DNA from: Rhodococcus sp. HM1
GTDB lineage: Bacteria; Actinomycetota; Actinomycetes; Mycobacteriales; Mycobacteriaceae
Length of the DNA: 64,000 bases
Direction of reading: 5' to 3'
NCBI RefSeq assembly: GCF_023218075.1
Contig: NZ_JALPTB010000030.1
Span: 1 to 64,000 of the forward strand
The position numbers and the translations under genes are program-made. Below, piece after piece: positions 50,126-54,444 of this stretch. The notes under the pieces are model-generated. The model did not search any database. It worked only from the letters and a program-made list of their open reading frames with translations, and was not told where the DNA came from. Positions within the stretch are counted from its first letter, which is position 1. Each line of letters starts with the position of its first letter.

Positions 50126-50761
50126 ATGGCACGTCAGGTTCGCGCCGAGGCCACCCGGGAATCGGTGCTGCGCGGCGCCGCCGAGGTCTTCGTGCGGCTG
50201 GGATACGCGAACGCCAGCCTCAACGAGATCATCGACGAATCGGGCGTGACCAAGGGCGCGCTGTACTTCCACTTCGGCTCCAAGGAGGAGCTCGCCCGCG
50301 GCGTCATCGACGCCGGTTTCGCCCGCTCGGCGGAGGCCGGTCTCGCCAAGATCGACGAACGCACGCCGGCGCTGGAGACGATGATCGAGCTGTCGGTCCT
50401 GTCCGTCGACCTGTCGGTCTCCGACCCGGTGGTCCGTGCGATGTTCCGGCTCGTTCTCGAGATCGGCGACTATCGCGGCTCCGGCGACAACCTGTTCGAG
50501 ATGTGGCTCGGCACGTTGCAGCAGCTGGCGCGCCGGGCGCAGGAGGAAGGCGACCTGTCCCCGGATTTCGATCCCGATGCGGCCGGTCTGATGGTGCTGC
50601 AGATGGTCGTCGGGGCGCGCACCGTCGCCGCCGGTCTCGGTCGCCGCGACCGGTCGATCGAACACATCGAGCTGATGTGGACGAACCTGCTGCCGTCGCT
50701 GGTTCCGGCGACGAAGGTCGAATACTTCCGGCAGTTCGCCGCGCGACGCCTGCGCGTCTGA
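50126..50761 (+). CDS. TetR regulator of the gamma-butyrolactone-receptor (ArpA/ScbR) type
   Basis: A 211-residue TetR protein. Its HTH segment SGVTKGALYFHFGSKEELAR (about 35-54) is the hallmark of ArpA/ScbR-like receptors for butyrolactone signals. Tryptophans in the ligand domain (EMWLGTLQQLAR, IELMWTNLLPS) fit a receptor pocket. Short palindromes TACCGAGGTA (49975-49984) and CACCGCGGTG (49990-49999) upstream could be autoregulatory sites. It precedes the secreted pseudolipase operon by 137 bp. Whether it binds a butyrolactone is unknown; no synthase gene is in the window. Confidence 0.85.
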   Translation: MARQVRAEATRESVLRGAAEVFVRLGYANASLNEIIDESGVTKGALYFHFGSKEELARGVIDAGFARSAEAGLAKIDERTPALETMIELSVLSVDLSVSDPVVRAMFRLVLEIGDYRGSGDNLFEMWLGTLQQLARRAQEEGDLSPDFDPDAAGLMVLQMVVGARTVAAGLGRRDRSIEHIELMWTNLLPSLVPATKVEYFRQFAARRLRV

Positions 50762-50815
50762 GCCGCCCGCGGCTGCGCGTCTGACGACGCCCCGGCGGGT
50801 TATCTGTATCCGTCG

Positions 50816-50830
50816 GTAACGGACTGTTAC
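50816..50830. promoter_or_regulatory. GTAAC-N5-GTTAC operator overlapping a -10
   Basis: GTAAC (50816-50820) and GTTAC (50826-50830) form an inverted repeat. The right arm overlaps TACTGT (50828-50833), the best -10 for the pseudolipase gene. A repressor bound here would block that promoter; the adjacent butyrolactone-type TetR is the obvious candidate. Confidence 0.5.
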
Positions 50831-50836
50831 TGTGCC

Positions 50837-50875
50837 GTGAACTGCGCGCTGCGCCGGGGGCAGCGCGCAGTTCAC
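50837..50875 (+). promoter_or_regulatory. Perfect 16-bp hairpin in the 5' leader of the pseudolipase gene
   Basis: GTGAACTGCGCGCTGC (50837-50852) and its exact complement (50860-50875) flank a 7-nt loop. If the -10 is TACTGT at 50828, the transcript would begin almost exactly at the hairpin, which would cap the mRNA 23 nt before the start codon. It could also be the terminator of the upstream TetR gene. Confidence 0.6.
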
Positions 50876-50898
50876 CACACAGTGACAGGAACGTATCG

Positions 50899-52236
50899 AT
50901 GCGAGTCTTGCGACAACTCGTGGCGACCGGCGCTGCTGCCGCGCTGGCCCTTACCCTCACCACGGCTGCCCTGACCACGGCGACCACCGCCGGCGCCGAG
51001 CCCGTCCAGGTCGACGACGTCTTCAACCCGTTCGTGGTGAGCACCTTCCGCGACGGGCAGATCGCGCATCCGTCGCAGTGGACGCCGCGCCCGGCCTCCA
51101 CCGACCCGTGGTTCGACCCGCCCGCCCTCGGCGACGGGGACGTCCCCGGCACCCTGCTGCGGCACCGCCCGGTGACGGTGCAGGTGTACGGGGTACAGCC
51201 GGGCCACGTCACCGCTCATCAGCTGATGTACGTCACCACCGATTTCGACGGCTCGCGCACCGTCGCCACCGGCATCCTCATGCTCCCCGAGGACGGCACG
51301 CCGCCGCAGGACCGCAGACTCATCGGCTACTCCGAGGCCAACGACAGCCTCGGCCCGAACTGCATGCCGAGCACCCAGTGGACCGGTGGCAACCAGACCG
51401 ATCCGTCGCTGTTCTCCGCGCTCGGACCCGTCGCGCAGATGTTCGGCCGCGGCTGGGCCGTGATGATGAGCGACACCGCCAACGACGGCGACACCGCCCC
51501 AAACGGCTTCTCCATCGGCCGGTTCAGCGGACCCGCGACCCTCGACGGGCTGCGCGCAGCCATCGCGCTGCACGACGCCGGGTTCGCGCCGGACGTCCCG
51601 GTCGGGATCTTCGGGATCGCCGGGGGTGGGGTGGCCGCCGGGTTCGCCGCGGAGATGGCCGGCACCTACGCGCCGGAACTCAATCTCGTCGGCACCGTGC
51701 TCCAGGCCATGGTCGTCGACAGCGCGACCTTCGAACGCACCGCGGACGGCGGTATCGGTTCGGGATTCGTGTTCGCCAACTCGCTCGGCTTCGCTGCGAA
51801 GTACCCGGAGATCGACCTCGACGCCGAACTCACCCCGCTCGGCCGGGCCGCTGCCGACCTGTTCCACAGCACCTGCCAGGGGCTGTATCTGATGTTCCCG
51901 TTCGTGCCGTTGTCCGCGCTGTACACGCACGGGCGGCCCGCCGACAACCCGGCGTTCGCGCGGGCCTACGCCGAGAACGCACTCGGCACCCGACCGAACG
52001 AGATCCCGACCGCCCCGGTGCTCATCACGTCGTGCCGCGACGACTTCCTCGTCCCCTACGAGGACGTCGAGAACCTCGGCAACTTCTGGCGCGCGCACGG
52101 CGCCGACGTCGGATTCGATCCGTCGGTGTGCGGGATCGGCGACGTGCTGACCGACCCGGTCCGGGTGGGCGTCGAGTTGCTCGGCATGCAGAACGTCGAC
52201 TGGTTCGATCGGCGCTTCGAGGAGGCCGGCCGATGA
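50899..52236 (+). CDS. Secreted lipase-fold protein without catalytic serine
   Basis: A 445-residue protein with a Sec signal peptide (about 1-34, cut after AGA). It belongs to the secretory-lipase (LIP) alpha/beta-hydrolase family: LIGYSEANDSLGPNCMPS, GWAVMMSDTANDGD and AAEMAGTYAPELNLVGTV align with the family. The nucleophile elbow, normally GYSxGG, reads GIAGGG with Ala241 in place of serine (codon GCC). The usual histidine near the C-terminus is also not evident, though DDFLVP keeps the acidic region. It is therefore probably a non-enzymatic binding protein. Its stop overlaps the next gene by 4 bp. Confidence 0.82.
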   Translation: MRVLRQLVATGAAAALALTLTTAALTTATTAGAEPVQVDDVFNPFVVSTFRDGQIAHPSQWTPRPASTDPWFDPPALGDGDVPGTLLRHRPVTVQVYGVQPGHVTAHQLMYVTTDFDGSRTVATGILMLPEDGTPPQDRRLIGYSEANDSLGPNCMPSTQWTGGNQTDPSLFSALGPVAQMFGRGWAVMMSDTANDGDTAPNGFSIGRFSGPATLDGLRAAIALHDAGFAPDVPVGIFGIAGGGVAAGFAAEMAGTYAPELNLVGTVLQAMVVDSATFERTADGGIGSGFVFANSLGFAAKYPEIDLDAELTPLGRAAADLFHSTCQGLYLMFPFVPLSALYTHGRPADNPAFARAYAENALGTRPNEIPTAPVLITSCRDDFLVPYEDVENLGNFWRAHGADVGFDPSVCGIGDVLTDPVRVGVELLGMQNVDWFDRRFEEAGR

Positions 52237-53483
52237 AACGTCTGCTCGCCACCGCCCTGACCGCCGTGACCCTCGCCGTCGGGGCCTCCGGAACAGCCAC
52301 TGCCGCACCCGATCTCGACGCTGTCCTCGATCTCGACACCGTCCTCGACGTTCCCCGCAACAACCTCGACTCCGAGCACGGCGGGGGAGTCGCGACCGAT
52401 CTGTCGGCCGACCCCGAGGTGCTGCGGCCGCTGCTCGACCGGGCCCGCGCCACCGGGGCCGACCCGGAACGCTACGCGGCCCTGCTGCACCAGTACTGGC
52501 TCGCCGTGGCGGCCCGCAACGCCGGGATCGACCTGAATCGGTGGGACCCGCAGCTCGGGTTGACGGCCAACGAGCAGAATCTGAAGAACACCTTCGCCTA
52601 CTACCAGAAGCTGCAGCGCGAGCATCCCGACTTCCTGTGGACCGGACAGGGGGGCCTGGCCGGACCGTCCTTCGGTGCCGGCGTCATGGACGTCGACCTG
52701 GTCGGGGTGGTCATCGGCGTCCGGGAGCTGCGCGACGCCCTCGCCCAGGTCACCCGCACGCTCGACGACGCCGCCGCCCCCGCGGCGGCGGAGCTGCCCG
52801 AGGACCTGCGGGCGGTACTCGCCGTCGGGCACACCATCACCCCCGAGGACATCGCGGACTTCCAGGTCCGGGTCATCGCGATGAGCAAGCACATCTTCAC
52901 CGACCTGCTGCCGCAGCACGAGGCATACCTGGCCGGTGGTCTCTACGCGATCGACGAGTTCCGCCGGGCGGGCATCATCGACGACCGCGCCGTCCGGGCC
53001 TGGCGCGATCTCGCGACCGGGGACCCGGAGCTGGTAGTGCGCGGCAACGCCGAACTGCTGCACCGCGAGCAGTACCAGTCGATCGCCGACCAGTGGGACG
53101 CCACCCGCGAGGCCCGCGGTCCCGTCGGCCGGGCGCTGACCTACCTGTCGACGTTCGGCGCCGACCCCGCGATCCCGGGCGTGCTACCGCCCCGGGAGGC
53201 GTTCCCGCTGACGCTGACCGCGGGCGATCCCGCCGTCGGCCCGCAGTGGCGCCTGCAGACACCGCTGCCCGCGTTCAACTGGTCGGACCGCGACGCCCGC
53301 TGGGAGTACATCACCACCCACATGCTGCCGAAGTACCGGTCGCTCGCCCAGGATCGGCCGGCCGAACTCGCGGTCGCCCTGAGCAAGCCGATGGATCAGC
53401 AGTTCCTGGAACAGCGGGCCCTGAATCGGCTGGTGCCCATCCTGCGGTCGGCGGCCCGCACGACGCAGGTGCAGTACTACTGA
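52233..53483 (+). CDS. Secreted protein of unknown function, co-translated with pseudolipase
   Basis: A 416-residue protein with a clear signal peptide (MKRLLATALTAVTLAVGASG, cut near ATA-AP). I do not recognise its family. It is mostly helical, with conserved-looking stretches DPERYAALLHQYWLAVAAR, NTFAYYQKLQREHPDFLWTG and HMLPKYRSLAQDRPAELAV. There is no obvious catalytic motif or lipobox. ATG overlaps the pseudolipase stop (ATGA), so the two exported proteins are probably made in fixed ratio and may form a complex. Confidence 0.75.
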   Translation: MKRLLATALTAVTLAVGASGTATAAPDLDAVLDLDTVLDVPRNNLDSEHGGGVATDLSADPEVLRPLLDRARATGADPERYAALLHQYWLAVAARNAGIDLNRWDPQLGLTANEQNLKNTFAYYQKLQREHPDFLWTGQGGLAGPSFGAGVMDVDLVGVVIGVRELRDALAQVTRTLDDAAAPAAAELPEDLRAVLAVGHTITPEDIADFQVRVIAMSKHIFTDLLPQHEAYLAGGLYAIDEFRRAGIIDDRAVRAWRDLATGDPELVVRGNAELLHREQYQSIADQWDATREARGPVGRALTYLSTFGADPAIPGVLPPREAFPLTLTAGDPAVGPQWRLQTPLPAFNWSDRDARWEYITTHMLPKYRSLAQDRPAELAVALSKPMDQQFLEQRALNRLVPILRSAARTTQVQYY

Positions 53484-53532: not shown

Positions 53533-53862
53533 GTGACCTTCGGACCGTTCGACGCCGAGCATGCCCCCGCCGCACTCGCCCGCGTCCTCGACGACCTCGG
53601 TGCGGACGCAGCGGTCACGATCACGGCCGTGCCGCCGCTGCTGACCGTCACCCAGGCGGCGGACGTGCTCGGTGCCTCCCGCGCCGAGGTGGCGCGCCTC
53701 GTCGACAGCGGGGCGCTGCCCGCCGAGTTCCACGGCCTGCACCGGCGGGTGGACCGCGCCGACGTCGTCGCACTGGCGCAGCGTCGCGCGACGATCCGCA
53801 CCCAGGTCCTCGACAACCTCGCCGACCTGGCCCGCCGCGACGGCCTGTACGACGAATTCTGA
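53533..53862 (+). CDS. Excisionase-type HTH protein (VapB-like antitoxin candidate)
   Basis: About 109 residues from GTG 53533 (ATG 53497 is an alternative). The middle carries a MerR/excisionase-like helix-turn-helix (LLTVTQAADVLGASRAEVARL, then HGLHRRVDRADVVAL). The acidic/aliphatic C-terminus (DNLADLARRDGLYDEF) is the kind of segment that binds a PIN toxin. The PIN-domain gene follows after 18 bp. The pair fits an actinobacterial type II toxin-antitoxin module. Confidence 0.75.
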   Translation: MTFGPFDAEHAPAALARVLDDLGADAAVTITAVPPLLTVTQAADVLGASRAEVARLVDSGALPAEFHGLHRRVDRADVVALAQRRATIRTQVLDNLADLARRDGLYDEF

Positions 53863-53880: not shown

Positions 53881-54444
53881 ATGCCCGTACGGGTGGTGCT
53901 CGGTGCATCGGTGCTCGCCGATGCGCGAATGCGGGACGTGGCGCTCGCGTTCGCGGAAGACGGTCTGTACCAACCGTATTGGAGCGACGGTGTCATCGCC
54001 GAAGTGGACCGCCGGCTGCCGACGGAACTGCCGCGACCGGCCCGCGACTATCTGTTCGCCGAACTGGACCGGGCGTTCCCGGACGCCCGCGTCACGTGGC
54101 CGACGACGGTGCTGCGGGAGGTGCCGTACGTCGTCGACCCGCGCGACACCCACCTGACGGCGGTCGCGCTGATCGCTCACGCCGACGCCGTCGTCACCAC
54201 CGACCCGGCGATCGCCGCCGCGCTCGAACGCTCCGGAATCGAACCCTGGACCCCCGACGCGTTCGTCACGTTCGTCGTCGACGCCGACCCCGGCCGCGCG
54301 CGGGCCACGCTGCTGCGGATGGTGCGCAGACGCTGGCTCCCCGGCGCCGACGAGACCGACGACGCACTGCTCTCGCGCCTGGTGACCTGGGCGCGCCGTG
54401 CGCTGGGGGACAGCAGCGCCGACCTGCTCGCGTCCGCGGACTGA
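53881..54444 (+). CDS. PIN-domain protein (VapC-like) with altered first acidic residue
   Basis: A 187-residue PIN-domain protein. The opening strand reads [12 protein letters not shown] where active members have VLDxxVL, so the first metal-binding aspartate is Gly8 (codon GGT). Later acidic positions are kept ([34 protein letters not shown]). VapC RNases need about four acidic residues for Mg binding, so activity is doubtful. It follows the HTH protein by 18 bp and precedes mfd. Confidence 0.75.

Follow-up and report, generated by a model that had tools for sequence, protein, structure and literature searches.

The window analyzed here is a stretch of 64,000 nucleotides from a Rhodococcus-type genome (Rhodococcus sp. 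HM1), for which R. zopfii (L009) and R. phenolicus (L010) are the closest of the named relatives found. It encodes two adjacent proteins of predicted export, a protein of lipase fold (LIP) and a partner (SEC), immediately downstream of a TetR regulator of the ScbR family. The genes are arranged from left to right as glmU (minus strand), a TetR that we take to be Rv1019-like, the ScbR-family TetR, LIP, SEC, HTH_17, PIN, and mfd. The window proteins are 92% (LIP) and 88% (SEC) identical to those of R. zopfii, and 90% and 82% identical to those of R. phenolicus. The coordinates and features given for the TetR, palindrome, hairpin, LIP, and SEC in an earlier, sequence-only reading of this locus were all recovered in the sequence:

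50126–50761, plus strand: ScbR-family TetR, 211 amino acids, 161.4 bits against NF041196
50816–50830, plus strand: GTAAC-N5-GTTAC element over a possible −10 box of LIP (TACTGT, assigned by eye), from a motif count
50837–50875, plus strand: perfect 16-bp hairpin (arms 50837–50852 and 50860–50875) in the probable LIP leader, z −4.37
50899–52236, plus strand: LIP, predicted secreted pseudolipase of the LIP/CAL-A fold, 445 amino acids, PF03583
52233–53483, plus strand: SEC, predicted exported partner and distant DUF2515 relative, 416 amino acids

Loss of the catalytic triad in LIP and linkage to SEC

LIP scores 100.8 bits against PF03583 (cut-off 23) and is thus a member of this family by profile. 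The nucleophile elbow of LIP reads GIAGG, against GYSGG in the three PDB alignments shown for CAL-A and its relatives. The catalytic triad of CAL-A is given as Ser184-Asp334-His366 in an excerpt of PMC2841678. No triad of this Ser-Asp-His type is found in the window protein, where the nucleophile position is occupied by Ala241 (codon 51619–51621), the His is missing, and the acid residue is kept as Asp382.

The same positions were read in 84 module LIP loci, taken from a list of 105 LIP matches in the family that score 420 bits or more. Ala occupies the nucleophile position in all 84 proteins, whereas all 17 other LIP-family proteins, five of them paralogues from the window genome, keep Ser. 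The catalytic His is found in none of the 84 (77 have Tyr) and in 13 of the 17 others. Asp382 is retained in 83 and Asp149 in all 84 module proteins, and there is hardly any variation at Asp389 and further polar positions. The replacement of Ser by Ala at the elbow of a lipase-fold protein, reported in the sequence-only reading, was therefore borne out, with no orthologue carrying an intact Ser at position 241 and with the loss of the catalytic His in addition. The dN/dS ratio between the window and R. zopfii is 0.16 for LIP and 0.22 for SEC, and the value for LIP indicates a gene that is kept and is not decaying. Sec-type signal sequences were recognized by eye at the N-termini of both LIP and SEC, and by a crude test the N-terminus contains a hydrophobic stretch in 83 of 84 LIP and 81 of 81 SEC-A proteins.

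In four further LIP-family proteins (L200–L203) the elbow Ser is present, but the catalytic His is missing and Asn stands in place of the acid Asp. These apparently constitute a second inactive LIP group by the residues present, and no SEC gene was found in the flanks of about 2 kb read around them. Broken copies of LIP genes occur in two genomes (L212 and L213).

The start of SEC overlaps the end of LIP by ATGA. No Pfam or NCBIfam family is matched by SEC over its cut-off, and the score against DUF2515 (PF10720, titled "protein of unknown function" in Pfam) is 11.9 bits for a cut-off of 24.3, which places the window protein outside the family by profile. PF10720 is matched at E ≤ 1 by 23 of 28 members of the SEC superfamily, the best at 3.4e-7, and a fused homologue (L222) exceeds the cut-off with 28.2 bits. 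By these profile matches SEC is a distant relative of DUF2515, tied to it through intermediates only. The assignment of SEC to no known family in the sequence-only reading thus stands for matches over cut-off and gives way to this distant kinship.

Conservation in the SEC superfamily was measured across 81 SEC-A, 18 SEC-B, and 8 more distant homologues. Residues W104, Y124, D153, D224, H229, R278-E279-Q280, and R356 each reach a conservation of at least 0.88. Eight columns of a 28-row alignment are invariant (W104, Y124, D224, G236, A256, E279, Q280, and R356), and D153, H229, and R278 are nearly so. This near-invariant polar set looks like a functional site, and we infer that the action of the pair would be placed in SEC. 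The search for a solved structure returned one weak match to SEC with the single sequence (E 0.079) and none with a profile.

SEC-like matches occur in 18 of 298 genomes of the order and in 5 of 296 genomes of the phylum, 4 of the latter belonging to the same family. In L223, L224, and L225, from other families of the order, the SEC-like domain is C-terminal to a WXG100-type domain, which is matched over the cut-off in L223 and below it in L224 and L225. The SEC-like domain of L222 stands behind Hydro_N_hd, and L227 and L228 are unfused. The window SEC gave no match to a WXG100-like N-terminal domain and has the signal sequence there instead. Genera other than those of the named species are labelled here by g-numbers, and the clade of the window includes g1; subfamily SEC-B (L180–L197) is found in g4, g22, g23, g24, g25, and g26.

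Among 401 genomes of the family, 89 contain both LIP and SEC-A, 10 contain SEC-A only, 1 contains LIP only, and 301 contain neither, with cuts set from the listed scores at about 440 bits for SEC and 420 bits for LIP. SEC-A is therefore present in 99 genomes and module-type LIP in 90 (Fisher p 2e-76, uncorrected for kinship). The LIP-only genome (G197) has split matches to both genes. SEC is the next gene in 78 of the 84 LIP loci read, with SEC first in 55, LIP first in 18, and a divergent arrangement in 5, so the linkage that the sequence-only reading had proposed to survey is present. The gene calls were crude and GC3-based; LIP was missed in L158, which was added to the adjacency count, and SEC was missed in L189.

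A tree of 83 LIP proteins separates into two well-separated clades with branch support of 100/100, rooted at the midpoint only. The window falls in the smaller clade (I), which has 15 rows and the genera g1, g10, g20, g22, and g24. LIP precedes SEC in 13 of 13 clade-I loci that have both genes, and SEC is mostly first in the larger clade (II). The pairwise distances of LIP and SEC are correlated with a Spearman coefficient of 0.72 over 77 loci, a value uncorrected for species kinship, which would give some of it. No LIP–SEC fusion was seen in the loci read, where the long SEC frames are fusions to other domains. No conserved third neighbor was found either; other than LIP and SEC, no gene cluster extends beyond 6 genera, and the widest is a broad group of SDR genes. 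LIP and SEC form a true unit. The sequence-only reading had put forward a non-enzymatic exported pair around a lipase-fold protein; a pair of this kind, with the triad of the lipase fold missing, is supported by this linkage together with the Ala and His survey.

Seven loci of g23 (L102, L105, L111, L122, L153, L154, and L165) have in common a gene for glycosyl hydrolase 3 and a different TetR close to the pair, and MaoC, SDR, or thiolase genes occur near these or other g23 loci.

The ScbR-family regulator and the LIP promoter

The TetR at 50126–50761 exceeds the cut-off of 150 bits for NF041196, in agreement with its earlier description as an ArpA/ScbR-like regulator. The best solved relatives in a sequence search are CprB and a gamma-butyrolactone receptor. 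One strong match to this ScbR-type TetR is present in each of 18 genomes of the genus, and 13 of these have no LIP–SEC pair. The order glmU, Rv1019-like TetR, ScbR-family TetR, HTH_17, PIN, and mfd is constant in 17 genus loci (the window and 16 others; a further locus, L037, is partial). LIP and SEC are located between the TetR and HTH_17 in three of the 17, namely the window, R. zopfii, and R. phenolicus. Of the five genus genomes with the pair, two (G008 and G016) have it away from the TetR, on another contig or about 2.7 Mb distant. In R. rhodnii (L011) the pair is divergent, and no match to the TetR, glmU, or mfd was found within 5–6 kb on either side.

At E 1e-30, matches to the TetR occur in 86 of 201 genomes of the wider family, paralogues included. 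Matches of at least 195 bits occur in 71 family genomes, 49 of which have no module-type LIP. Thirteen of the 56 loci at this score outside the genus were read; glmU is near the TetR in 13 and mfd in 11, and neither LIP nor SEC is near it in any of the 13. Among the loci compared, this TetR is near a LIP gene in only four: the window, R. zopfii, R. phenolicus, and L108. The pair occupies the same glmU–mfd site in two genomes of g22, upstream of the TetR in L108 and without a TetR in L103. More than one genus has therefore acquired or retained the pair at this position, for which the TetR is dispensable.

What looks like an ordinary butyrolactone gene cluster is present elsewhere in the genome, on contig C109 (L232, 4103–6696). 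It contains a gblA of the ScbA/BarX type (297.6 bits, cut-off 200) and an adjacent gblR (202.1 bits, cut-off 150). The third gene is reductase/epimerase-like and matches no family over its cut-off. The layout is similar to that of the R. jostii RHA1 gbl cluster as described in an excerpt of PMC5735094. Both PF03756 matches of the genome are located on C109 beside gblR, and none neighbors the window TetR. This TetR comes second among the ScbR-family matches that pass the cut-off in the genome and shares 37% identity with gblR of C109. The C109 cluster is likely the butyrolactone system of this genome, with gblR as the receptor. The sequence-only reading had made quorum-type control a part of the LIP–SEC system. 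This finds no support with a TetR that is core to the genus genomes, most of which lack the pair, and is weakened further by the location of the pair beside it in 3 of 17 loci and by the better-scoring gblR that adjoins gblA elsewhere. The ScbR-type TetR is probably a resident of the locus at which the pair stands in one lineage, and its membership in the module appears improbable from these gene neighborhoods. Direct regulation of the pair by the TetR in the window lineage is possible.

The palindrome noted earlier over a −10 box is present, the box itself (TACTGT) having been judged by eye. GTAAC-N5-GTTAC at 50816–50830 is the sole match in the window, and none of 100 shuffles contains one. 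The element is identical in R. zopfii and R. phenolicus, as is most of the surrounding stretch. The perfect hairpin that follows was also described correctly for the window; it is not conserved in the two nearest named relatives, where z is +1.62 and +1.74 at the same place, and it was rejected as a regulatory element.

The element may be read as a box of the GTNAC type bound by an OmpR-class response regulator, MtrA or similar, which would place the pair in an envelope or osmotic stress regulon. Excerpts of the published work describe the S. coelicolor MtrA sites as direct repeats of GTNAC-like 5–6-nt half-sites with a 5-nt linker, one site being a nucleotide shorter and one lying over a −10 (PMC5650626), and the M. 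tuberculosis and C. glutamicum MtrA motifs as GTNAC-like half-sites (PMC6265350, PMC3353115). GTAAC-N5-GTNAC is found upstream of 8 of 77 module loci and in 0 of 444 control upstreams, and the looser GTNAC-N5/6-GTNAC in 13 of 77 and 6 of 444. The cross-genus conservation looked strong at first, until four of the eight matches (L113, L120, L127, and L139) proved to be coding sequence belonging to the gene upstream; three of the eight come from near-identical sister species, and two non-coding lineages are left. The larger clade contains none of the eight, the searched patterns are all absent from 3 of 15 clade-I loci (L107, L147, and L161), and the period in the window is 10 bp, against 11 in the consensus sites of the excerpts. 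An MtrA-type box, with this weak support across lineages, is a possible if rather unlikely explanation.

It is also unlikely that the TetR represses the pair through GTAAC-N5-GTTAC and frees it in response to a butyrolactone-like signal, the pair then handling the signal or a lipid. The family score over the cut-off, the palindrome shared by three species over a −10-like box, and the existence of a gblA homologue in the genome are consistent with such control, as is GTAA-N5-GTTA, with half-sites one base closer, in the promoter of the TetR itself at 7 of 17 genus loci. The exact motif is absent from the TetR's own promoter at all 17 genus loci, as is GTAA-N6-GTTA, and the promoter of the window TetR has neither form. 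GTAACGG recurs in the non-coding region ahead of clade-I LIP genes of g22 and g20, and among these loci such a TetR is adjacent only in L108; the LIP promoters with GTAACGG include those of g20 and that of L103, which has no TetR at the locus. The gblR beside gblA and the 49 TetR-bearing genomes without a module-type LIP argue in the same direction.

Two more genes separate SEC from mfd:

53533–53862, plus strand: HTH_17/excisionase-type DNA-binding protein (start codon by eye), 42.1 bits against PF12728 and 39.5 bits against TIGR01764, from 53545
53881–54444, plus strand: PIN-domain protein, 31.4 bits against PF13470 (cut-off 27)

All 17 of the genus loci read have HTH_17 and PIN genes upstream of mfd, and in several of these (for example L029 and L033) the HTH gene begins right at the stop codon of the TetR. 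They were not found in the 13 TetR loci read from other genera. The two genes may be a toxin–antitoxin-like unit and perhaps a real neighbor of the TetR.

Proposed function of the pair

LIP and SEC are proposed to be a two-protein extracytoplasmic module of Mycobacteriaceae-type actinobacteria, in which LIP is a fixed pseudolipase that binds without cleaving and works with SEC. This reading, built from the protein sequences and their genomic distribution, is an even call in our judgment. Since LIP keeps the fold and the acid Asp, has Ala as the nucleophile, and has lost the His, binding without hydrolysis by the Ser route is most likely; the ligand would be a lipid or an acyl ester within the envelope or close to it. 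LIP would most likely act in a complex with SEC. The polar cluster D153, D224, H229, R278-E279-Q280, and R356 would be the active or ligand-binding site of SEC. Of the two proteins, SEC is favored as the acting partner and LIP as an adaptor or substrate-presenting partner. Extended tentatively, an obligate pseudolipase might capture a mycolate-type or long-acyl ligand and hand it to, or switch on, a DUF2515-like enzyme, as an undescribed envelope system of mycolate-bearing actinobacteria. It is similarly speculative that the partner in such a system would be Sec-exported here and borne on WXG100-type fusions in other families.

Several observations weigh against the proposed module. SEC is not adjacent in 6 of the 84 LIP loci, the SEC-A of ten genomes stands without LIP, and no LIP lies in the stretch read at any of the 18 SEC-B loci; SEC can therefore do without LIP in some cases. 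The trees of the two proteins agree only in part, since the clade-II loci L100 and L101 carry SEC proteins nearest to clade I. For distant pairs dN/dS is 0.56–0.69 for LIP and 0.35–0.91 for SEC at dS of 0.66–0.86; these values are read as dS saturation and would count against the proposal if they are not. Linkage could also result from a shared pathway and not from a complex, and another nucleophile could give LIP some activity.

That LIP is still an enzyme, using another nucleophile or acting as a transferase, is quite improbable. The near invariance of Asp149, Asp382, Asp389, and other polar residues perhaps exceeds what a scaffold needs, and this has to be set against the loss of both Ser and His in every one of the 84 proteins. 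Synteny is common to closely related loci and SEC-B stands without LIP, yet neighborhood by shared inheritance only, with separate jobs for the two proteins, is very improbable given adjacency in three gene orders across many genera and near-complete co-occurrence in the family genomes.

The proposed pseudolipase–SEC module was compared with known systems. LIP resembles CAL-A and PF03583 proteins in its profile and PDB sequence matches, its signal sequence, and the position of the acid Asp; it differs in the replacement of Ser by Ala and the absence of His in all 84 members read, and in its tie to SEC. SEC resembles DUF2515 proteins through the weak matches of its superfamily and the score of L222, and differs in that the window protein is below the cut-off, is predicted to be exported, and is linked to a pseudolipase. 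The window TetR is like the ScbR/ArpA/GblR butyrolactone receptors in family membership by profile and unlike them in that it is a core glmU–mfd gene and is not beside gblA. Neuroligins are pseudoenzymes of the alpha/beta-hydrolase fold, in which the fold is kept without the triad and is used for binding. LIP likewise has a hydrolase fold without the triad, and differs in being bacterial, in its predicted export, and in its DUF2515-like partner. A search of one open-access library for literature on DUF2515, on PF03583 in Rhodococcus, and on pseudolipases returned nothing relevant. This suggests that the pair, which and not the regulator is the core of the find, is undescribed as far as that library shows.

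Members of this clade match a lipase profile and will probably be called lipases in annotation, although none of the 84 read has the nucleophile or the His. The neighboring ScbR-type gene is no ground for inferring quorum control. If the lipid-handling complex is real, it would provide a first context for the DUF2515 superfamily and a testable entry to the extracellular transport or sensing of acyl lipids in mycolate bacteria.

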